This document shows, piece after piece, positions 19,768 to 31,174 of a stretch of DNA of 64,000 nt. The notes beneath the pieces are model-generated. The model saw nothing but the letters and a program-made list of their open reading frames with translations, ran no database searches and was not told where the DNA came from. The DNA is taken from assembly GCF_000280925.3 (NCBI RefSeq), contig NZ_CP012109.1, positions 806,001-870,000 of the forward strand, written 5' to 3'. The DNA is from Myxococcus hansupus (lineage in GTDB: Bacteria; Myxococcota; Myxococcia; Myxococcales; Myxococcaceae). The position numbers and the translations under genes are program-made. Numbering within the stretch: position 1 is the first letter of the stretch; each line of letters starts with the position of its first letter.

Positions 19768-19794
19768 GAGGCCCCTCAGCGACGATGGGGCCTC
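19768..19794. terminator. Hairpin over the bshA stop codon
   Basis: Perfect 8-bp stem GAGGCCCC/GGGGCCTC with 11-nt loop, 14 nt after the DUF2911 stop and overlapping the bshA stop. Likely bidirectional terminator for convergent genes. Confidence 0.5.
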
Positions 19795-20939
19795 GCGAGG
19801 AGCTGGCGGTAGAGCGTCTCGTAGCGGTCGATGGCGGGCTCCTTCTGGAAGTGCTCCAGCACCCGAGCCCGCGCCCGCCGCGAGAATCCCACCCAGCGCT
19901 CCGCGTCCTCCACCAGCGTGAGCACGTGCTGGGCCATGGCCTGCACGTCGCCCAGCGGCGCGAGGAAGCCCGTCTCTCCATGCGTCACGAGCTCGGGGAT
20001 GCCGCCCAAATCGCTCGCCACCACGGGGACGCCGCAGCTCAGGGCCTCCAGGGCCGCGAGCCCGAAGCTCTCCTGTTCGCTCGGGAGGAGGAAGACGTCC
20101 GACGCGGCGAGCAGCTCCTCGAAGCGGTCCTGCTTGCCCAGGAAGGCGACGCGGCCCTCCAGGCCCCTCTCGCGCAGCATGCGCTCGGCGGGTGAGCGCT
20201 CCGGGCCATCACCAATCATCACCAGCCGGCAGGGCCGCCGCTTGTGGACCTCGGTGAAGATGGCCACCACGTCGGCGATGCGCTTCACCGGACGGAAGTT
20301 GGAGATGTGGATGAGCACCGGCTCGGGCTCACGCAGCGCCGGGAAGAGGGGCCGCAGGCACGCGCGGTCTCTCACCGGCGCATAGCGCGCGGTGTCCACG
20401 AAGTTGGAGATGACGTCGATGGGGACGCTCTCCGGAATGTCGAAGCCCTTCCACGTCGCCCGTCGCAGATAGGCGGAGGGCACCGTCACCGCGTCGCTGC
20501 GCATGATGGAGAAGCGCGTGATGGGCAGGTAGCTGGGGTCGATGCCCACCAGCGTGGTGTCCGTGCCGTGCAGCGTGGTGACGACGCGCGGGGCCTTGTG
20601 TCCCAGCACCTCGCGCGCCATCCACGCCGCGGTGGCGTGGGGCACGGCGTAGTGGACGTGCAGGATGTCCAGGCGCTCGTAGTTGGCGACCTCGATCATC
20701 TTCGAGGCCAGCGCGATGGGATACGTGCTGGACTGCTGGAGCGCCGGGTAGTCGGTCTCCGTCACCTCGTGGAAGAAGACCTTCCGGTTCGCGCCGTGGA
20801 GGCGCACGGGCAAGTCCCGGGCGATGAAGTGGACGCGGTGGCCCCGGTCCGCCATCGCGAGGCCAATCTCCGTGGCGACCATGCCGCTGCCACCAAAGGT
20901 TGGAAAGCAGGTGATGGCCACGTTGAGCGGGGCATTCAT
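19776..20939 (-). CDS. bshA: N-acetyl-alpha-D-glucosaminyl L-malate synthase BshA
   Basis: A 387-residue GT4 glycosyltransferase making GlcNAc-malate from UDP-GlcNAc and L-malate, the first step of bacillithiol synthesis. Diagnostic segments are CFPTFGGSGMVATEIG at the N-terminus, LDILHVHYAVPHATAAW, TLHGTDTTLVG and the nucleotide-sugar motif PSEQESFGLAALEALSCG with ExxxxxxxE glutamates. Length matches the family. It is the last gene of the minus-strand operon bshC-bshB1-bshA and overlaps bshB1 by 4 nt, implying translational coupling. Confidence 0.95.
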   Translation of the reverse strand: MNAPLNVAITCFPTFGGSGMVATEIGLAMADRGHRVHFIARDLPVRLHGANRKVFFHEVTETDYPALQQSSTYPIALASKMIEVANYERLDILHVHYAVPHATAAWMAREVLGHKAPRVVTTLHGTDTTLVGIDPSYLPITRFSIMRSDAVTVPSAYLRRATWKGFDIPESVPIDVISNFVDTARYAPVRDRACLRPLFPALREPEPVLIHISNFRPVKRIADVVAIFTEVHKRRPCRLVMIGDGPERSPAERMLRERGLEGRVAFLGKQDRFEELLAASDVFLLPSEQESFGLAALEALSCGVPVVASDLGGIPELVTHGETGFLAPLGDVQAMAQHVLTLVEDAERWVGFSRRARARVLEHFQKEPAIDRYETLYRQLLARPHRR

Positions 20940-21742
20940 GAGCGTGCCGGGAAGAACAGGGGCTTGGCGAAGCTATTCCTGCGGAAGTGGTCGACCGGGT
21001 CCGTCACGCCCAGCGCCTCACGCACGACGTAGGGCTCGCCGTGGGTGACGCCAATCTGCGCGCCGTAGAAGCGGTCCCGGGCCTCCAGGGAGGACAGCGA
21101 CAGCGGCGAGCCCACCAGCGTGGGGGGCGCATCCGGCCGGGGCAGCACCTGGCTGGCGTAGCAGTGCACCGCCGCCAGCTTGCGCTCGTAGACGCCGGAG
21201 ACGTCGACGATGAAGCTGGGCTCGGCGAGGTGCCGCAGCGGGTAGTACAGCACCTGCCGGGGCGTGAAGGGCTCCGCGGTGGGCTCGGCGTCGAACTTGC
21301 GCACGCCCGCGAAGAAGAGCGCCCGCGTCACCAGCGCGCTGGTGGCCTCGTGGTCGGGGTGCCGCTCCTTCTCCCAGGGGACGAGGACCAGCTCCGGGCG
21401 CAGGCGCCGCAGCGTCTCCACCACGCGCGTCACGGCGGCGGTGCGCGCGCGCTCGGGCTCGGGCGTGTCGAAGCCCGCCCACGGACTGACCCAACCGTCG
21501 GGCAGCTCCAGGTTCTCCCGGTGGGCCAGCCCCAGCGCGCGGCTGGCGGCCTCGGTCTCCTCTGCGCGGGACTGAAGCGTGCCGCGCGAGCTCTTCTCGC
21601 CGCGCGTCAGGTCGACGATGCCGGTGCGGTAGCCCCGGGCGGCCAGGCTCGCGAGGAGCCCGCCGCAGAAGAGCTCCACGTCGTCGGGATGCGGGCCGAA
21701 GGCGAGGACGTCGATGCCGAACGTCGTGGCCGGGGCGTTCAT
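20936..21742 (-). CDS. bshB1: Bacillithiol biosynthesis deacetylase BshB1
   Basis: A 268-residue LmbE/PIG-L zinc deacetylase that removes the acetyl group from GlcNAc-malate. The zinc and catalytic motif is [14 protein letters not shown], and the third ligand lies in [33 protein letters not shown] and a terminal VRREALG-like segment fit BshB1 rather than mycothiol enzymes. ATG 21742 is preferred over 21781 because it overlaps the bshC stop by 4 nt and matches the family start. Confidence 0.93.
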
Positions 21743-23412
21743 GGTGTCAGGTCCTTCGAGTCGCCGGAGAAGGGCACGCACGCCTCCAGCACCTGCCGCG
21801 TGAAGGCCCGCGTTCCAATGCGCGCCGCGAAGTAGGGCATCCCGAGCACCCGCTCCTGGGGCGCGTCATGGGGAAAGAGGAAGGCGCGCAGCCGGTCCAC
21901 CCGCTCCGAGGCCGTGGTGTCGAGCCGGGCGAGCGCGCGGCGGTAGCGGCCCGTCAGCCGGGACACCGCGACGCGCACCGTGGCCCGCGTGCGTTGAACC
22001 GCGTCCTGGAGGTTCGCGTCCGCGGACGTCACCTGCCCGGCGAGTTGCTCCAGCTCCGCGGAGAAGGCGCCGAAGAGGCGCGCCTCCAGGGACTCGGGAG
22101 ACGCCAGGGGCTCGGGGGCGTCGCGCGTGGCCAGCTTCGTCAGCAGGGCATCCCGGGGCACCTGGACCTCGTCGGGCTGGAGCCCCAGCTTGTGCAGCCA
22201 GCGGCGCGTGCGGTCATCGAGCACGCGGAAGCGCGACCGCGGAATGGCCAGGGGCATGGGCTTCTTCGCGTGGGCGTAGAGCGGCGCCAGTTGCGCGAAG
22301 TAGGCCAGCTCGCCGGGACCTCCGACATACGCCGCCGTGGGAAACCAGGTGTCCTGGAGGAGGGGCCGCAGCAACGCGGACGTGGTGAAGCGGTGGGGCT
22401 CGTGCTCCAGGGCTGCGCGCAGCGCGTCGCTCGTGAGGGTCGCGTTCTCCGGATGGCCCACCAGGCTCCAGGCGTCCGGGCCCGCCGGGTCCAGCCGGTA
22501 GCGAGGTCCGTCGAGGGCGCCTGGCGAATAGAAGCTGAGCGGCGCGCCCGGGCGGATGTGGACCTGCACGGCATAGCCGGCGGAGGACAGCGCCTCCACC
22601 CGGCCCGCGAGCGCGGTGGAGAGCGCCGCGGCTTCCTCGAGCGCGAAGCGGTGCACGGGCGCGGCGAGCGGCGCCAGCCGTGCGTCACGCGGGTCGATGA
22701 AGACGAGGCCCTCGTCGGCGAAGAGGGCGGAGAGGACGTCGGTGAAGGCTCCCGCGAGCGTGGCTTCCGGGCGGTAGGCCCGCTCCAGCAGGGAGAGGAT
22801 TTCCTCGGCGTGGGGTTCGTCTCCCAGTTCGGCGCGGAGGGTGGCCAGGGCGGGGAGGACGCTCGGGCCGAGGTGACAGTGGGCGATGGGCGCTCGAGAC
22901 GTTGCTGCGTCCTTCAGCTCGAGCGCCAGGCGACAGGGCCCTCCGCTCGGGCGTGGGATGACACAGTGGTCAATCTCCGGGAGGTCGTGGTCCTCCGTCT
23001 GGAGCCAGAAGAGGGGAACACAGGGCCGGCCCGTTTCTTCCCGAAGTGCCCGCGCGGTGACGATGGCGGACGCGGCCTTGTAGAGCGTGTACAGCGGGCC
23101 CAGGAAGAGGCCCATCTGCTGGCCCGTCACCACGACCACGGTGCCGGGCTGGGCGAGCAGCGCGAGGTGGTGCTCGCGCGCGGGGCTGGGGGCGAGGCGC
23201 GCGTTCTGGACTCGCAGCACGTCGAGCAGCGCGGGCGAGACCGTGCGCGACGCGGCGGCGTCCACGGCGCGGGCGCGGGCGTCTCGGTGTCGGTAGTCAT
23301 CGGAGAGGAAGGAGAGCGCTGCCGCATCTCCACGAAGCCACGCGGTCGAGAACGAGGACGTCACGGCATGCCGTGATAACAGGTCGCCGCTGGCATGCCA
23401 CCAGAAGTGCAT
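21739..23412 (-). CDS. bshC: Putative cysteine ligase BshC (bacillithiol synthesis)
   Basis: A BshC protein (557 residues from ATG 23412; 541 from GTG 23364, which fits the family start better: [20 protein letters not shown]). BshC joins cysteine to GlcN-malate. Seen: [59 protein letters not shown] and a C-terminal coiled-coil (residues about 430-500). It is the first gene of the operon; downstream bshB1 and bshA overlap it serially. Its promoter is shared with the divergent PIG-L gene, whose start is about 95 nt away. Bacillithiol in a myxobacterium fits reported occurrence outside Firmicutes. Confidence 0.93.
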
Positions 23413-23506
23413 GCCTGCACGTCGGGTGCGAGCGTGTCGGCGTGCGAGGCCTCACCACGAACGTGGTCCGCGCGCACGCGGGAGGCTTGTTATAGGGTCC
23501 GCCCGG

Positions 23507-25990
23507 ATGCGGAACCTCCTCCTGGGAATGACGCTGGCCATGAGCCTTGGATTCGGGTCGACGGCGGTGGCTCAGCCTCCTCGGCAACCCCACGCAGGTG
23601 AAATCGCGGCGGGCCTGAAGCGGCTGGGCGTGACGGGCAGCGTGCTGTACGTCGCCGCGCACCCGGATGACGAGAACACGCGCCTGCTCGCATGGCTGGT
23701 TGGCGCCAAGGGCCTGCGGGCGGGTTACCTGTCCGTGACGCGGGGCGATGGCGGGCAGAACCTCATCGGCACGGAACAGGACGCCCTGCTCGGGCTCATC
23801 CGCACGCACGAGCTGCTCGCGGCGCGCACCGTGGACGGCGCGGAGCAGTTCTTCACGCGGGCGCGCGACTTCGGCTACTCGAAGAGCGCGGAGGAGGCGC
23901 TGCGCATCTGGGGCCATGACGCGGTGTTGGCCGACGTCGTCCTCGCCATCCGCCGCTTCCAGCCGGACGTCATCATCACCCGCTTCACCACGGAGCCTCC
24001 GAATCACGGCCACCACACGGCCTCCGCGTTGCTGGCGGCGGAGGCCTTCGTCGCGGCGGCGGACCCGAAGCGCTTCCCCGAGCAGCTCACCGAGGTGAAG
24101 CCGTGGAAGGCGAACCGCCTGCTGCAGAACGCCTCCCAATGGTGGTTCAAGCCCGACGAGGACCTGTCCCGCTACCTGCGGCTGGACGTGGGCGGCTACG
24201 ACGCGCTGCTCGGGCGTTCGTGGGGCGAGGTGGCCGCGGAGAGCCGGAGCCAGCACAAGAGCCAGGGCTTCGGCGCCGCGGCGGACCGCGGCCCCAGCAT
24301 GGAGTACTTCACGCCGCTGGCGGGGACGCTGCCGAAGCGTGACGTGTTCGAGGGGCTCGACTTCTCGTGGAAGCGTTGGAAGGGCAGTGAGGCCGTGGCC
24401 CGCGCGGTGAGCGCCGCGACGAAGTCCTTCGATGTGTCCGCGCCTCACCGCTCCCTGCCCGCGCTCGTGCGGGTGCACGATGCGCTGACCGCGCTGCCGG
24501 ACTCCCACCCGGGGAAGGCCGTCAAGCTGCGGGAGACGGAGGCGCTCATCGCCGCGTGCGCCGGGCTGTTCCTGGAAGCGCGAGCCGCCAGCCCCATGGG
24601 CGTTCCCGGCGCCGCGGTGGAGGTGGAGGCCGTGGCGCTGAACCGCTCACCGGCCTCGCTCAAGTGGGTGGGCATGACGCTCCCGGGCGAGAAGCCCGAG
24701 GCCGTGGGGCAGGCGCTGGGTGAGAACACGCCCGTGAAGCTCAAGCGCTCGGTGCCGCTTCCGATATCGGCGCGCATCTCCACGCCGTACTGGCTCCGCG
24801 AGCCCGTGAGCGGCGGTCTCTATGCCCTGGACGAGAAGGACCGCGCGCTCACCGGTCAGCCGGAGGGCGGTCCCGCCTTGGAGGTGTCGTTCGAGTACGA
24901 GGTGGCGGGGCGCCGCTTCCGCGCCGTCCGGCCTGTCGTCTACGTCTGGACGGACCCTGTGCGCGGCGAGCTCTACCGCGACTTCGAGGTTGTCCCGCCG
25001 CTGACCGCGACGCTGCAGCAGGACGTCATCATGTTCCCCAACGGCGAGGGCCGGGCGGTGAACGTGGTGGTCTCCGCGGGCATGGACAACGCTCCGGGCA
25101 CCGTCCGTTTGGAGGTTCCGCGGGGGTGGCGCGTGGAGCCCGCGTCCGTGGAATTCAAACTCGCGGCGCGGGGCGATGAGCGCACCTTGCGCTTCCAGGT
25201 GACGCCGCCGCGCGGGAGCACCGAGAAGGCGGAGCTGCGTGCCTGGGTGGACGTCGGGGACCGCGCCTGGTCGTGGAAGGCGCGTTCGGTGTCCTACGCG
25301 CACATCCCGCCGCTGACGGTGCGTCAGCCGTCCGTGGCCACGCTAGTGCCCTTCACGCTGGCGACCAAGGGCAAGCGCATTGGCTACATCCCGGGTCCGG
25401 GCGACCGCGTGGCGGAGAGCCTGAGCGAGGTGGGCTACGAGGTGACGCTGCTGCCGGATGAGCGGCTCGCGCTGGAGCCCCTGGAGCGCTTCGACGCCAT
25501 CCTCGTGGGCGTGCGCGCCTTCAACGCCAACCCGCACCTCTACGCCCACCGGGAGCGGCTGCTCCGCTACGTGGAGGGCGGCGGCCGGCTGGTGGTCCAG
25601 TACAACACCAACAGCCGCGTGGGGCCGCTCACCTCGCTGGTGAGTCCCTATCCGCTGGAGATTGGCCGAGACCGGGTGACGGACGAGACGGCGGCGATGA
25701 CGCCGGTGTCCCCGGACGAGCCGTTGCTGCGCGCGCCCAACGCGCTGTCGCCCGCGGACTTCGCGGGCTGGGTCCAGGAGCGCGGCCTCTACTTCGCGTC
25801 GTCGTGGGACTCCCGCTACCGCCCGGTGTTCTCCCTGCGGGACGCCGATGAGGCGCCGCTCCAGGGGGCGCTGCTCGTCGCCCGTCATGGCAAGGGCACG
25901 TTCGTCTACACGGGGCTCTCCTTCTTCCGTCAGCTCCCCGCCGGGGTCCCCGGCGCCTACCGGCTTCTGGCCAACATCCTGTCTCCATGA
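23507..25990 (+). CDS. Large secreted PIG-L family deacetylase
   Basis: An 827-residue protein starting at ATG 23507, which gives a Sec signal (residues 1-23, ending AVAQ). The N-terminal LmbE/PIG-L domain (residues about 40-250) has AAHPDDENTRLLAW and EPPNHGHHTASALL as zinc motifs. The middle (about 330-600) is beta-sandwich-like, and the C-terminus (about 620-820) resembles a class I glutamine-amidotransferase/DJ-1 fold (GKRIGYIPGPGDRVAESL, DAILVGVRAFNANP, GGGRLVVQYNTN) without an obvious Cys nucleophile. Activity should be periplasmic or extracellular N-deacetylation of an amino sugar. It is divergent from bshABC and overlaps the following small gene by 4 nt. Confidence 0.88.
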   Translation: MRNLLLGMTLAMSLGFGSTAVAQPPRQPHAGEIAAGLKRLGVTGSVLYVAAHPDDENTRLLAWLVGAKGLRAGYLSVTRGDGGQNLIGTEQDALLGLIRTHELLAARTVDGAEQFFTRARDFGYSKSAEEALRIWGHDAVLADVVLAIRRFQPDVIITRFTTEPPNHGHHTASALLAAEAFVAAADPKRFPEQLTEVKPWKANRLLQNASQWWFKPDEDLSRYLRLDVGGYDALLGRSWGEVAAESRSQHKSQGFGAAADRGPSMEYFTPLAGTLPKRDVFEGLDFSWKRWKGSEAVARAVSAATKSFDVSAPHRSLPALVRVHDALTALPDSHPGKAVKLRETEALIAACAGLFLEARAASPMGVPGAAVEVEAVALNRSPASLKWVGMTLPGEKPEAVGQALGENTPVKLKRSVPLPISARISTPYWLREPVSGGLYALDEKDRALTGQPEGGPALEVSFEYEVAGRRFRAVRPVVYVWTDPVRGELYRDFEVVPPLTATLQQDVIMFPNGEGRAVNVVVSAGMDNAPGTVRLEVPRGWRVEPASVEFKLAARGDERTLRFQVTPPRGSTEKAELRAWVDVGDRAWSWKARSVSYAHIPPLTVRQPSVATLVPFTLATKGKRIGYIPGPGDRVAESLSEVGYEVTLLPDERLALEPLERFDAILVGVRAFNANPHLYAHRERLLRYVEGGGRLVVQYNTNSRVGPLTSLVSPYPLEIGRDRVTDETAAMTPVSPDEPLLRAPNALSPADFAGWVQERGLYFASSWDSRYRPVFSLRDADEAPLQGALLVARHGKGTFVYTGLSFFRQLPAGVPGAYRLLANILSP

Positions 25991-26166
25991 GCACTGCTCC
26001 CAACCTGACGCCCCGTGAGCCCACGGCCGAGGCCAGCGCGCCCCGGCCCGAGCTCGATGACGCCCCGCCGCTGCTCGGCTCGTGGCGGAACATCTACCTC
26101 CTGGTCATGGCCACCTTCGTGGCGTTCGTCGTCGTGGGTTGGGTCCTCACCGAGGTGTACACATGA
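25987..26166 (+). CDS. 59-residue single-pass membrane protein
   Basis: A small gene between the PIG-L deacetylase and the symporter. ATG 25987 overlaps the deacetylase stop (ATGA), and its own TGA overlaps the symporter ATG 26163 in the same way. The first 33 residues are polar and Pro-rich; residues about 34-57 form a membrane helix (IYLLVMATFVAFVVVGWVL) ending EVYT. Double 4-nt overlap strongly argues for a real, translationally coupled gene. It may be a symporter subunit, as small proteins accompany several SSS transporters, but that is inference. Confidence 0.78.
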   Translation: MSTAPNLTPREPTAEASAPRPELDDAPPLLGSWRNIYLLVMATFVAFVVVGWVLTEVYT

Positions 26167-27875
26167 CGGGGCTCGACTGGCTTGTCCTGGGCGGGACGAT
26201 TGCCTTCATCGTGGGATGGGGCCTCTGGAAGTCCCGGGGGGCGGGCACCAGTGAGGATTACCTGCGCGGAGGCCGCGATTTGAAGTGGCCCACCATCGGC
26301 CTGACGGTGATGGCCACGCAGGCGAGCGCCATCACCTTCCTGTCCGTGCCCGGGCAGGCGTACGAAGATGGCATGCGGTTCGTGCAGTTCTACTTCGGAC
26401 TGCCCATCGCGATGATCATCATCAGCGCGGTCTTCGTCCCCATCTACTACCGGCTGAACGTCATCACCGCGTACGAGTACCTGGAGTCGCGCTTCGACCT
26501 GAAGACGCGGCTGCTGGGCGCCTTCCTCTTCCTCATCCAGCGCGGCCTGGCGGCGGGCATCACCATCTACGCGCCAGCCATCATCCTGTCCGCCATCCTC
26601 GGCTGGCCGCTGGAGCCCACTGTCGTCGGAATGGGCGCGCTGGTCATCCTCTACACGGTGACGGGCGGCGCCAAGGCGGTGAGCCAGACGCAGAAGCAGC
26701 AGATGGTGGTGATGATGGGCGGCATGGTGGTGGCGGCGATTGTCATCGTCTGGCGGCTGCCCGAGCACATGTCGTTCGGCAAGGCCGTGGACGTCGCGGG
26801 CGCCTTTGGCCGGATGAACGTGGTGAGCTTCGACTTCGACATGTCGGACCGTTACAACTTCTGGTCCGGCATGACGGGCGGCCTCTTCCTGTCGCTGTCG
26901 TACTTCGGCACGGACCAGTCGCAGGTGGGGCGCTACCTGTCGGGGCGCTCCGTCTCCGAGAGCCGGCTGGGGCTGCTCTTCAATGGCGTGCTGAAAATCC
27001 CGATGCAGTTCCTCATCCTGTTCGTCGGGATTCTCGTCTTCGTCTTCTACCAGTTCAGCACGCCGCCGCTGCTCTTCAACGAGACGCTGCGCACGCGCGT
27101 GCAGGGCACGGCGCAGGCGGGCGAGTACGCCGCGCTGGAGTCGAAGTGGGAGCACGTCCAGACCCGCAAGCGCGCCGAGGTGGAGCGCTACCTCGCGGCC
27201 GTGGAAGCGGGGGATGCCGTGGCCGGGGAGACGTCTCGCTCCCTGCTCCAGAACGCGGAGCAGGAGGCCAGCGCGGTCCGCAAGGAGGCCAAGGAGATGG
27301 TGGTCCGCGCGCTGCCGGGCGCGGAGACGAAGGACTCCGATTACATCTTCATCACCTTCGTGAAGCGCTGGCTGCCCAGCGGCCTGTTTGGCCTGCTCAT
27401 CGCGGTCATTCTTTCCGCGGCCATGAGCTCCATCGCCAGCGAGCTGACCGCCCTGGGCGCGACGACGACGGTGGATTTCTACCGACGCGTGTTCCACAAG
27501 AATGCCTCGGACCGGCACGTGCTGGTGGCCTCGAAGCTGTTCACCGTGTTCTGGGGATTGGTGGCCGTGGGCTTCGCGACCTTCGCGTCGTTGCTCGACA
27601 ACCTCATCCAGGCGGTCAACATCCTGGGGTCCATCTTCTACGGCACGGTGCTGGGCATCTTCCTGGTCGCCTTCTTCGTGAAGCACGTGCGCGGGCATGC
27701 CGTGTTCGCCGCTGCCGTCGTCTCCCAGACTGCGGTGATTGGCCTCTTCTTCCTCTCCGACGTCGGCTACCTCTGGTTCAACGTCATCGGCTGCGCGCTG
27801 GTGGTGGCGCTGAGCCTGGTGGCGCAGGTCGTCCTGCCTCGCGGCGAGACGCCGGCCCCGGCCCCGGGGGCCTGA
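26163..27875 (+). CDS. Sodium:solute symporter (SSS family)
   Basis: A 570-residue transporter with about 13-14 membrane segments. The N-terminal MTGLDWLVLGGTIAFIVGWGLW helix, SEDYLRGGRDLKW, QASAITFLSVPGQAYEDG and the YFGTDQSQVGRYLSGRS loop are SSS signatures. An unusual hydrophilic, coiled-coil-like stretch of about 90 residues (about 310-400: KRAEVERYLAAVEAG, LLQNAEQEASAVRKEAKEM) sits in a loop before the AMSSIASELTALGATTTVDFY helix. Coupled to the 59-residue protein and the secreted deacetylase, it probably imports the product of that deacetylase together with Na+. A 10-bp hairpin follows. Confidence 0.9.
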   Translation: MTGLDWLVLGGTIAFIVGWGLWKSRGAGTSEDYLRGGRDLKWPTIGLTVMATQASAITFLSVPGQAYEDGMRFVQFYFGLPIAMIIISAVFVPIYYRLNVITAYEYLESRFDLKTRLLGAFLFLIQRGLAAGITIYAPAIILSAILGWPLEPTVVGMGALVILYTVTGGAKAVSQTQKQQMVVMMGGMVVAAIVIVWRLPEHMSFGKAVDVAGAFGRMNVVSFDFDMSDRYNFWSGMTGGLFLSLSYFGTDQSQVGRYLSGRSVSESRLGLLFNGVLKIPMQFLILFVGILVFVFYQFSTPPLLFNETLRTRVQGTAQAGEYAALESKWEHVQTRKRAEVERYLAAVEAGDAVAGETSRSLLQNAEQEASAVRKEAKEMVVRALPGAETKDSDYIFITFVKRWLPSGLFGLLIAVILSAAMSSIASELTALGATTTVDFYRRVFHKNASDRHVLVASKLFTVFWGLVAVGFATFASLLDNLIQAVNILGSIFYGTVLGIFLVAFFVKHVRGHAVFAAAVVSQTAVIGLFFLSDVGYLWFNVIGCALVVALSLVAQVVLPRGETPAPAPGA

Positions 27876-29026: not shown

Positions 29027-31174
29027 CTACGCCAGCGGCGTTTCACGCTCCCAGTGACGCTTGGCGATGGCCTCGGCGAAGAGCTGCCCGAAGCCCTTCG
29101 TCTCCGTCTTCGCGCTGCGGACGACGCCTCGCATGGCCTCCACGCCCTTCGTGGGGGCCGGCTCCAGGTCGTCCACGCCCGCGGCGCTCAGCAGCAGGAC
29201 GGCGTCCGCGGACAGCGCCAGGGCCTTGCAGTGGATGTAGGCCTCGCGCACGAAGTCCACCGCCTGGGGCACGCGCTTCAGGGCCGCGACGCTCTTCTCG
29301 CCACCGGGCACGTAGACGGCGTCGTACGTCACCGAGGACGTGTTGGCGAAGGTGCGCAGGGGCCGCTCTTCCCGGCCCTCCAGGCTCGTCACCGGGCTCA
29401 GCGTGGGGCCCACCACCTCCAGCGTCGCGCCGCGCTCCGCGAGCGCCTTGCGCACGCCGTCCAGCTCCTTGCCGGCGAAGCCGTCCGACACCAGGGCGGC
29501 GATCTTGCGCGTCTTGATGGAGTCGTGCGGCGAGTTCTCCATGCTGAGGGCGGGAGACGTGTCCACCGAGGGCGCCCCCTTCTTGCCCGAGGCCTTGGGG
29601 GCCTTGGCCGGCTTGGTGGCCTTGGGCGGCTCGACGCCCACCGCCCGGGCCACGCGCGCGGCCAGCGCCGGGTCGATGTTCACCAGAATCTGGTTCACCA
29701 CGCGCTCGCGAATCTCCACGCGCTCCACCTTGCCAATCTCGAACTCGAGCGCGGCGACGACGTGCTCCTGCTCGGGCTTGGACAGGCTCTTGTAGAAGAG
29801 CGTGGCCTGGCTGAAGTGGTCGCTGAAGCTGTTGCTGCGCGCGCGAATCTTGTGCCCCTCCACGCGCTCCTGGCGGTGGTGGAAGGCCATGGCCGGGTTG
29901 GCCAGCACCGGGCAGCCGCCGCCCAGTGTGTTGGGGTGGTAGTTGGCCCGCGACGTGGGGATGGTGTGCCGCCCGAAGCCGTCCTGCTGGTGGTTGGTGA
30001 CGGGGCACACGGGCTTGTTGATGGGCAGCTCCGCGAAGTTGGGGCCACCCAGCCGCGTGAGCTGCGTGTCCAGGTACGAGAACAGCCGTGCCTGCATCAG
30101 CGGGTCATTGGTGAAGTCGATGCCCGGCACCACGTTGGCCACGCAGAAGGCGACCTGCTCCGTCTCCGCGAAGAAGTTGTCCGGGTTGCGGTTGAGCGTC
30201 AGCTTGCCCACGCGCTGCACCGGCACAAGCTCCTCGGGCAGCAGCTTGGTGGCGTCCAGGAGGTCGAAGCCGTACTTCAGCTCGTCACCCTCGGGGAGGA
30301 TTTGCAGCCCCAGCTCGTACTCGGGGAAGTCGCCCGCCTCGATGGCATCCCAGAGGTCGCGGCGGTGGAAGTCCGGGTCCTTGCCGGACAGCTTCTGGGC
30401 CTCGTCCCAGGCGAGCGCGTGGTTGCCCAACAGCGGCTTCCAGTGGAACTTCACCAGGTGCGCCTTTCCCTCCGCGTTGACCAGCCGGAAGGTGTGGACG
30501 CCGAAGCCCTCCATCATCCGGTAGCTGCGCGGGATGGCGCGGTCGGACATCAGCCACATCACCATGTGCGACGTCTCGGGGACGAGCGACACGAAGTCCC
30601 ACAGCGAGTCGTGCGCGGAGGACGCCTGCGGGATTTCGTTGTGCGGCTCCGGCTTCACGGAGTGGACGAAGTCCGGGAACTTGATTCCGTCCTGGATGAA
30701 GAAGACGGGCATGTTGTTGCCCACCAAGTCGAAGTTGCCCTGCTCCGTGTAGAACTTGGTGGCGAAGCCGCGCACGTCGCGGACGGTGTCCGCCGAGCCG
30801 CGTGAGCCGCCCACGGTGGAGAAGCGCACGAACACCGGCGTGCGCAGGGACGGGTCGGTGAGGAAGCTCGCCTGGGTGTACTTCTCCAGCGACTTGTAGA
30901 CCTGGAAGTAGCCATGGGCTCCGGAGCCGCGCGCGTGGACAGCGCGCTCCGGGATGCGCTCGTGGTCGAAGCGCATCATCTTCTCCCGGAAGTGGAAGTC
31001 CTCCAGGAGCGTGGGGCCGCGAACGCCCGCCTTCAGCGAGTTGTCGGTGTCGGAGATGGGGATGCCCTGGTCCGTGGTGAGGACCTTGCCCTCCGCATGC
31101 ATGCGGTGCGGTTCAAGGCTTTCGACCTTGAGCGTGGTGGGCCGGCTCTTCGCCGAGGGCTTGCGCGTTTTCAT
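29027..31174 (-). CDS. katE: Large-subunit catalase (HPII type)
   Basis: A 715-residue clade 2 catalase that disproportionates hydrogen peroxide. Seen: [19 protein letters not shown] with the essential His, [34 protein letters not shown] with the active-site Asn, and [18 protein letters not shown] with the proximal haem Tyr. Residues about 560-710 form the C-terminal DJ-1/PfpI-like domain typical of HPII ([33 protein letters not shown]). Ser/Lys-rich linkers separate the two. It stands alone; a stationary-phase or stress sigma factor is the likely controller by family precedent. Confidence 0.96.

Follow-up and report, generated by a model that had tools for sequence, protein, structure and literature searches.

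A conserved secreted PIG-L protein and symporter unit at the bacillithiol locus of Myxococcus hansupus, with a proposed role in extracytoplasmic bacillithiol recycling

Why should the genes for bacillithiol synthesis in a myxobacterium stand back to back with genes for a secreted deacetylase-like protein and a sodium:solute symporter? Bacillithiol (BSH) is Cys-GlcN-malate, a compound of glucosamine (GlcN) and malate. The window analysed here is a 64,000-nt stretch of Myxococcus hansupus (contig NZ_CP012109.1, positions 806,001 to 870,000), from a host genome of 9.49 Mb in one contig, for which the nearest named relative found was Myxococcus xanthus AM003 (locus L003). It carries bshC, bshB1 and bshA on the minus strand and, on the plus strand, a unit encoding a long secreted protein of the PIG-L superfamily (hereafter PIGL), a 59-aa membrane protein and a symporter of the SSS family. 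The gene content, the catalytic residues, a signal sequence (by eye), a conserved cluster and co-inheritance with bshC were all observed. The pairing of the bsh genes with the PIG-L/SSS unit is not accidental, and in Myxococcota it is a real, conserved, gene-content tie to bacillithiol. We consider it moderately probable that the unit comprises an extracytoplasmic amidase of BSH or BSH conjugates and an importer, acting in recycling.

Linkage of the unit with bacillithiol genes in Myxococcota

Genome surveys covered Myxococcota (145 genomes), Bacteroidota (296) and Acidobacteriota (149). Among the Myxococcota, the long PIG-L was found in 51 genomes and BshC in 50, with both in 50 and neither in 94; these counts include four genomes in which PIG-L was matched in two pieces, and five short PIG-L matches with weak scores of 23-42 bits (G396, G399, G415, G422, G426) were dropped. 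Fisher's test of the co-occurrence, not corrected for phylogeny, gave p of about 2e-38 over the 145 genomes and 3e-24 after the own genus was removed. BshC and the long PIG-L lay on one contig in 50/50 cases, separated by gaps of 8-2001 nt (median 145). In the sole genome with PIGL only (G027), bshA lies immediately upstream of PIGL, where an 8-kb contig ends. In the genus g32, six members carry both genes and seven of those listed carry neither, a pattern suggesting that the unit is gained or lost as a whole.

Layouts in Myxococcota are either divergent or collinear. The collinear order DUF2911-bshC-bshA-PIGL-SSS was found in L113-L115, and DUF2911-bshC-bshB1-bshA-PIGL, reaching the contig end, in L117. 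The initial annotation had drawn attention to two divergent units around one promoter; this layout is present in the window and is not essential, because collinear forms exist. Its central suggestion, that the two units belong together, gains from the strict co-occurrence and linkage in Myxococcota and from the collinear clusters of Acidobacteriota described below. The neighbourhood survey did not find that the units never co-occur elsewhere, though they lie apart in Bacteroidota.

Outside the Myxococcus group, many clusters of Myxococcota lack bshB1. Four genomes, G027 (L123), G047 (L119/L126), G405 (L116) and G483 (L120), with completeness of 92-98%, have bshA beside the long PIG-L, and a genome-wide search found no other PIG-L-domain protein in them, hence no visible BshB. 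The PIG-L proteins of L116, L119, L120 and L123 have signal-like N-termini, as judged by eye.

The locus in the window and its gene products

The N-terminus of the window PIG-L, which is 86% identical to its M. xanthus AM003 counterpart, is a Sec-type signal sequence, MRNLLLGMTLAMSLGFGSTAVAQ, as judged by eye. When the stretch preceding the PIG-L domain was screened by hydropathy, 109 of 139 proteins passed and most of the others listed were signal-like by eye; the window protein scored 1.86, just under the threshold of 2.0, and the remaining signal calls were therefore made by eye. The PIG-L domain occupies residues 42-287 and scores 52 bits with PF02585 (cut-off 28), which places it in the superfamily. 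The beta-rich middle gave an NPCBM/NEW3-type match of 22 bits, below the cut-off of 24.4. In the structure model (pLDDT 92), the C-terminal domain (621-827) adopts a ThuA/class-I GATase-like fold, matching 2gk3 with Z 16.7 over residues 623-827 and the ThuA-like 1t0b with Z 14.9, well above background; the match carries no functional implication. The nearest fold neighbours of the PIG-L domain were MshB (Z 21.9; 2.9 Å over 228 residues), LnmX (20.5) and BshB (18.8).

Residues H52, P53, D54, D55, E56, H167, H170 and H250, among others, were invariant in 55/55 aligned relatives. By analogy with MshB, we take H52, D55 and H170 to bind the metal, D54 to act as the base and H167 as the acid. The catalytic site is intact, and with these roles the enzyme should be active. 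Matches to curated families at E <= 0.001 were obtained for Mca with all 55 members, for BshB1 with 37, for MshB with 34 and for BshB2 with 30, the BshB1 profile being one that cross-matches long PIG-L proteins. By sequence, Mca is the closest curated family of the long PIG-L, though far below its cut-off, and because of that score we do not file the protein as Mca or Bca and propose only that it acts like them. A charged residue after HPDDE was tried as a mark of Mca-like specificity and rejected, R59 being arginine in only 37/55.

The likeness to Mca and Bca lies in the PIG-L fold, the metal-site residues and the cut proposed, that of the Cys-GlcN amide with recycling of GlcN-X, as given in PMC4101496. 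The window protein differs in its 827-aa length, signal sequence, extra beta and ThuA-like domains, and symporter partner; Mca and Bca themselves are short and cytosolic. BshB1 and BshB2 belong to the same superfamily and act on a related sugar substrate; the long PIG-L falls far below the BshB1 cut-off (23.9 bits against 182.5), is secreted, and coexists with BshB1 in the window. Two PIG-L proteins were found in the window's genome, BshB1 and the long one.

The symporter exceeds the sss superfamily cut-off. Among solved structures it is closest to SMCT1, NIS, SMVT and the putative bacterial sodium:solute symporter 5nv9, a set that includes transporters of monocarboxylates, iodide and multivitamins. 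Two features may set it apart from the SSS family at large: an insert of about 96 conserved-length residues, and the small transmembrane (TM) open reading frame (ORF) upstream. The insert lies between a helix ending in LVFVFYQF and a helix containing SAAMSS, and was at least 80 residues long in 113/114 aligned rows (66/67 outside the Myxococcus-type rows), the sole exception being the weakly related SSS of L052. By LeuT-fold topology the loop presumably faces outward, and the insert is probably extracytoplasmic and helical. Some small TM ORF was present between PIGL and SSS in 111/120 adjacent loci, a count that is not deduplicated and has no chance control; the locus counts for both insert and small ORF include some places twice, among them L003/L085, L112/L122 and L083, which is the window's own locus. 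In 21 examples of the small ORF position, three had none and most of the others shared a PPxFxSWxxxY-type motif; the small ORFs of L013 and L036 lack this motif and may be other small ORFs. The 59-aa single-TM protein is a probable accessory subunit of the symporter.

The DUF2911 protein, a periplasmic-type member of the cluster, went unnamed in the initial annotation. It has a signal sequence by eye, and its model (pLDDT 90) combines a beta-sandwich with TPR-like helices; a fold search returned no match at E <= 0.001, the top rows being mainly TPR proteins. In both Myxococcota and Acidobacteriota, DUF2911 is part of the bsh/PIGL cluster, and it recurs beside PIGL-SSS in three phyla (L127, L136, L197 and others).

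The coordinates are collected in Table 1. BshA, BshB1 and BshC all reach their NCBIfam equivalog cut-offs. The serial minus-strand overlaps of bshC-bshB1-bshA noted initially were confirmed on re-reading the genes as 4 nt each, as was the plus-strand unit, whose three genes overlap by 4 nt (ATGA) at each junction. Of the three bsh genes, the range first assigned to the locus, 21739-27875, contains only bshC; bshB1 and bshA lie just below it. The longest ATG ORF of bshC begins at 23412, and a GTG start at 23364 is likelier; the spacing of about 95 nt first given between bshC and the PIG-L gene holds with the ATG start (94 nt) and becomes 142 nt with the proposed GTG start. The DUF2911 gene is convergent with bshA and ends 21 nt from the bshA end.

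Table 1. Features of the bacillithiol locus, in positions of the window
Feature	Position	Strand	Evidence or remark
DUF2911 gene, 282 aa	18906..19754	+	PF11138, 1.7e-47
bshA, N-acetylglucosaminyl L-malate synthase	19776..20939	-	TIGR03999, 528 bits (cut-off 274)
bshB1, bacillithiol biosynthesis deacetylase	20936..21742	-	TIGR04001, 293 bits (cut-off 183)
bshC, cysteine-adding enzyme, GTG start proposed	21739..23364	-	TIGR03998, 502 bits (cut-off 266)
Perfect 16-nt palindrome TCACGGCATGCCGTGA, spanning the bshC start	23361..23376		
Secreted long PIG-L, 827 aa	23507..25990	+	Pfam PF02585, 1e-13
59-aa single-TM protein	25987..26166	+	Motif PPLLGSWRNIYLLV near the TM segment
SSS sodium:solute symporter, 570 aa	26163..27875	+	TIGR00813, 247 bits (cut-off 184)
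Symporter insert of about 96 residues (296-392), probably helical	27048..27338	+	Alignment of SSS rows

Intact copies of the palindrome occur in the window and at L003, L084-L086 and L088-L090. These loci count as six distinct close relatives and not seven, because L003 and L085 share coordinates and are apparently one genome; its 12-nt core is present in L143 and L145. As a shared operator it was rejected, since it occurs in near relatives only and was not found in the other, more distant loci examined. A 715-aa catalase-like protein (identity by eye; 29027-31174) adjoins the unit on the opposite strand, and its best match in the sister-genus genome G447 lies far from the PIG-L of that genome. 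An empty-site comparison with sister genomes was abandoned, as this flanking gene is not syntenic there.

The unit in Acidobacteriota and Bacteroidota

In Acidobacteriota, a long PIG-L of some subfamily was found in 71 genomes, of which 69 also gave a BshC match and 2 did not; 25 genomes had BshC only and 53 neither. Here BshC stands for any match at E <= 0.001, the curated BshC cut-off being passed by only 72 genomes, and the weak PIG-L match of G556 (44 bits) was dropped. Restricted to PIG-L proteins of orthologue grade, the counts for both, PIGL only, BshC only and neither were 24/2/70/53. The collinear cluster DUF2911-bshC-bshB1-bshA-PIGL-small-SSS was present in L127 and L128, bshB1-bshA-PIGL in L160, L171 and L174, and bshA-PIGL-small-SSS in L132. 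Mapped on an 82-row PIGL tree, the bsh link requires no fewer than four changes, or five with four bshC-mutL loci. In those loci (L129, L130, L131 and L158), bshC is directly followed by mutL and then by a ROK-barrel-SSS-PIGL-lyase module. Five genomes (G561, G582, G591, G600, G618) carry PIGL-SSS and only a weak BshC match, confined to two short stretches, which may reflect a highly divergent BshC.

A more distant PIG-L type was followed in 41 fetched loci (L129-L131, L146-L183), three of them from Bacteroidota, with Pfam and NCBIfam scans of the catabolic-type clusters run on representatives only. In 9/41 loci, all from Acidobacteriota, an ArgH-type lyase and a TonB-type barrel lie near PIGL, accompanied in 8/9 by a NagC-like ROK regulator, and SSS adjoins PIGL in 5/9. 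The order is ROK-barrel-SSS-PIGL-lyase in L129, L130, L131, L158 and L159, while PIGL is divergent from ROK-barrel-lyase in L169, L175 and L178, and L180 has SSS, lyase, barrel and PIGL with SSS about 5 kb from PIGL. In L169, L175 and L178 a protein matching only the isomerase half of GlmS adjoins PIGL (L175 by profile search only). In a Bacteroidota locus outside these nine, L163, a weaker lyase match (67 bits to ArgH) 4.4 kb from PIGL was not accepted.

The module lyases are 41-81% identical to each other, keep the RSRND and SSxMPQK motifs of ArgH, and share 27-32% identity with the better-scoring ArgH present in four of their genomes. A separate ArgH was found in 5/5 module genomes tested (of nine); it scored 566-636 bits, and the module lyase 324-350. 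The module lyases resemble ArgH in motifs and differ from it as second copies for which GlcN-malate is the proposed substrate. Amide hydrolysis on glucosamine, a lyase of the fumarate type, an isomerase/deaminase for glucosamine phosphate and a NagC-like sensor are, taken together, consistent with a substrate built from glucosamine and malate. This Acidobacteriota toolkit fits the cutting of BSH into cysteine, glucosamine and fumarate, with elimination of fumarate predicted.

In Bacteroidota, a PIG-L match of at least 300 bits was found in 88 of the 296 genomes, all 88 with BshC. In 75 loci of the Bacteroidota/Ignavibacteria type (one, L048, unclassified; flanks of up to 10 kb per side, shorter for some), SSS follows PIGL in 59. 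DUF2911 occurs in 39 of these 59 loci, within 4 kb in 30 cases, and in none of the other loci. The flanks held bshA once (L060) and BshB1 once (L040), figures that come with no chance comparison. The PIGL-SSS pair is common in Bacteroidota but unlinked to bshC.

Proposed function and its alternatives

We infer the mechanism of the unit from sequence, and consider the inference well supported. BSH would be present outside the inner membrane after leakage, export as a conjugate or release by other cells. The secreted PIG-L, acting in the periplasm or on the surface of the cell, would cut the Cys-GlcN amide by Mca/Bca chemistry, the cysteine being free, oxidised (as a disulfide) or S-conjugated. 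The symporter and its small TM subunit would import the product, most likely GlcN-malate (or the cysteine product), and the helical insert may dock a periplasmic partner. BshC would re-add cysteine to the imported GlcN-malate to give BSH, with DUF2911 as a putative periplasmic helper. Substrate, location, direction of transport and fate of the product are what we infer here. Of the two substrates first suggested for the unit, the thiol conjugate fits best, with Mca as nearest family and the Acidobacteriota neighbours; an N-acetylated amino sugar is not favoured.

Several observations weigh against this proposal. BSH is regarded as cytosolic, so a periplasmic amidase would need BSH export or leakage. 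The window PIG-L scores 32.3 bits with the Mca equivalog TIGR03446, whose cut-off is 277. Most other Acidobacteriota loci read have no bsh gene beside PIGL-SSS; G553 has PIGL-SSS and no BshC match, and in G504 bshA adjoins PIGL and the genome has no BshC match. No BshC was found in the fetched flanks of the 75 Bacteroidota/Ignavibacteria-type loci. Co-occurrence in Bacteroidota says nothing, because 290/296 genomes carry BshC anyway, and was rejected as support; a 40/40 result (from 40 of 80 loci) is weak support for the same reason. As for the catabolic-type clusters, the distant-type PIG-Ls of L129 and L130 are only 33-34% identical to the window protein, the ROK, lyase and SIS genes are not in the window's cluster, and the module lyases may have an arginine-type role, as all four that were scanned exceed the curated cut-off for argH, TIGR00838.

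Myxobacteria prey on BSH-containing Bacilli, and the unit might digest foreign BSH from lysed neighbours or prey as a source of carbon, nitrogen and sulfur in place of recycling the cell's own thiol; the distant PIG-Ls have catabolic-looking neighbours, namely the TonB-type barrel, the NagC-like regulator, the lyase and the GlmS-isomerase-like gene. We regard this as unlikely, since in Myxococcota the unit accompanies the biosynthetic genes and is absent without them, whereas scavenging would help non-makers too, and since the Myxococcus cluster lacks the catabolic genes. It is less probable again that PIGL-SSS imports another N-acylated amino sugar and that its bsh link is a frozen neighbourhood, inherited and lost together. 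That explanation would suit the PIGL-SSS pairs that stand apart from bsh genes in Bacteroidota and in the majority of the Acidobacteriota loci read, as well as the many substrates of SSS transporters, but the link recurs in several arrangements across the changes counted on the PIGL tree, and co-inheritance in Myxococcota is 50/50; a frozen neighbourhood is disfavoured because one would not be rearranged yet still kept. Least probable of all is an extracytoplasmic BshB, in which the long PIG-L would deacetylate exported GlcNAc-malate and SSS return GlcN-malate to BshC, at least where no other deacetylase is present, as the clusters missing bshB1 and the four genomes without visible BshB might suggest, for the window genome carries its own BshB1, export of an intermediate would be wasteful, and draft gaps or a non-PIG-L deacetylase may account for the four genomes.

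Extending the amidase-importer reading, we tentatively raise a complete extracytoplasmic pathway of BSH salvage and breakdown in at least three phyla, which we think possible but would not yet expect. It would consist of the PIG-L amidase and the SSS importer (in some with a TonB-type barrel), followed either by reuse through BshC or by an ArgH-paralogue glucosaminyl-malate lyase and a GlmS-isomerase-like SIS deaminase under a NagC-like sensor, with DUF2911 as a BSH-linked periplasmic factor. In the breakdown version the lyase would eliminate fumarate from the malyl glycoside, and the SIS protein would deaminate glucosamine phosphate under control of the sensor.

Periplasmic gamma-glutamyltranspeptidase acts in glutathione recycling, and the proposal resembles it in concept only: the protease-resistant amide of a thiol would be opened outside the cytoplasm and its parts re-imported. 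The protein family and the thiol are unrelated, and the long PIG-L is not a member. In the literature, Bca is presumed to permit GlcN-malate recycling in Bacillus (PMC4101496), BSH conjugates are described as excreted or processed (PMC6336425), and BSH genes are reported in Myxococcota and in Acidobacteria (PMC12719100, PMC6282198). Neither 'neighbo' nor 'operon' occurs in the text of the last two papers, and among the matches listed from the open-licence literature no title or abstract opening describes the unit. The new element proposed here is an amidase step outside the inner membrane, with a dedicated importer, inside a bsh cluster.

With the co-inherited amidase-symporter-DUF2911 unit, BSH recycling in Gram-negative bacteria can be approached through named genes and tested directly. 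It would also offer a role for a domain of the DUF class, DUF2911, and the module lyases may represent a candidate new enzyme activity, the release of fumarate from GlcN-malate.

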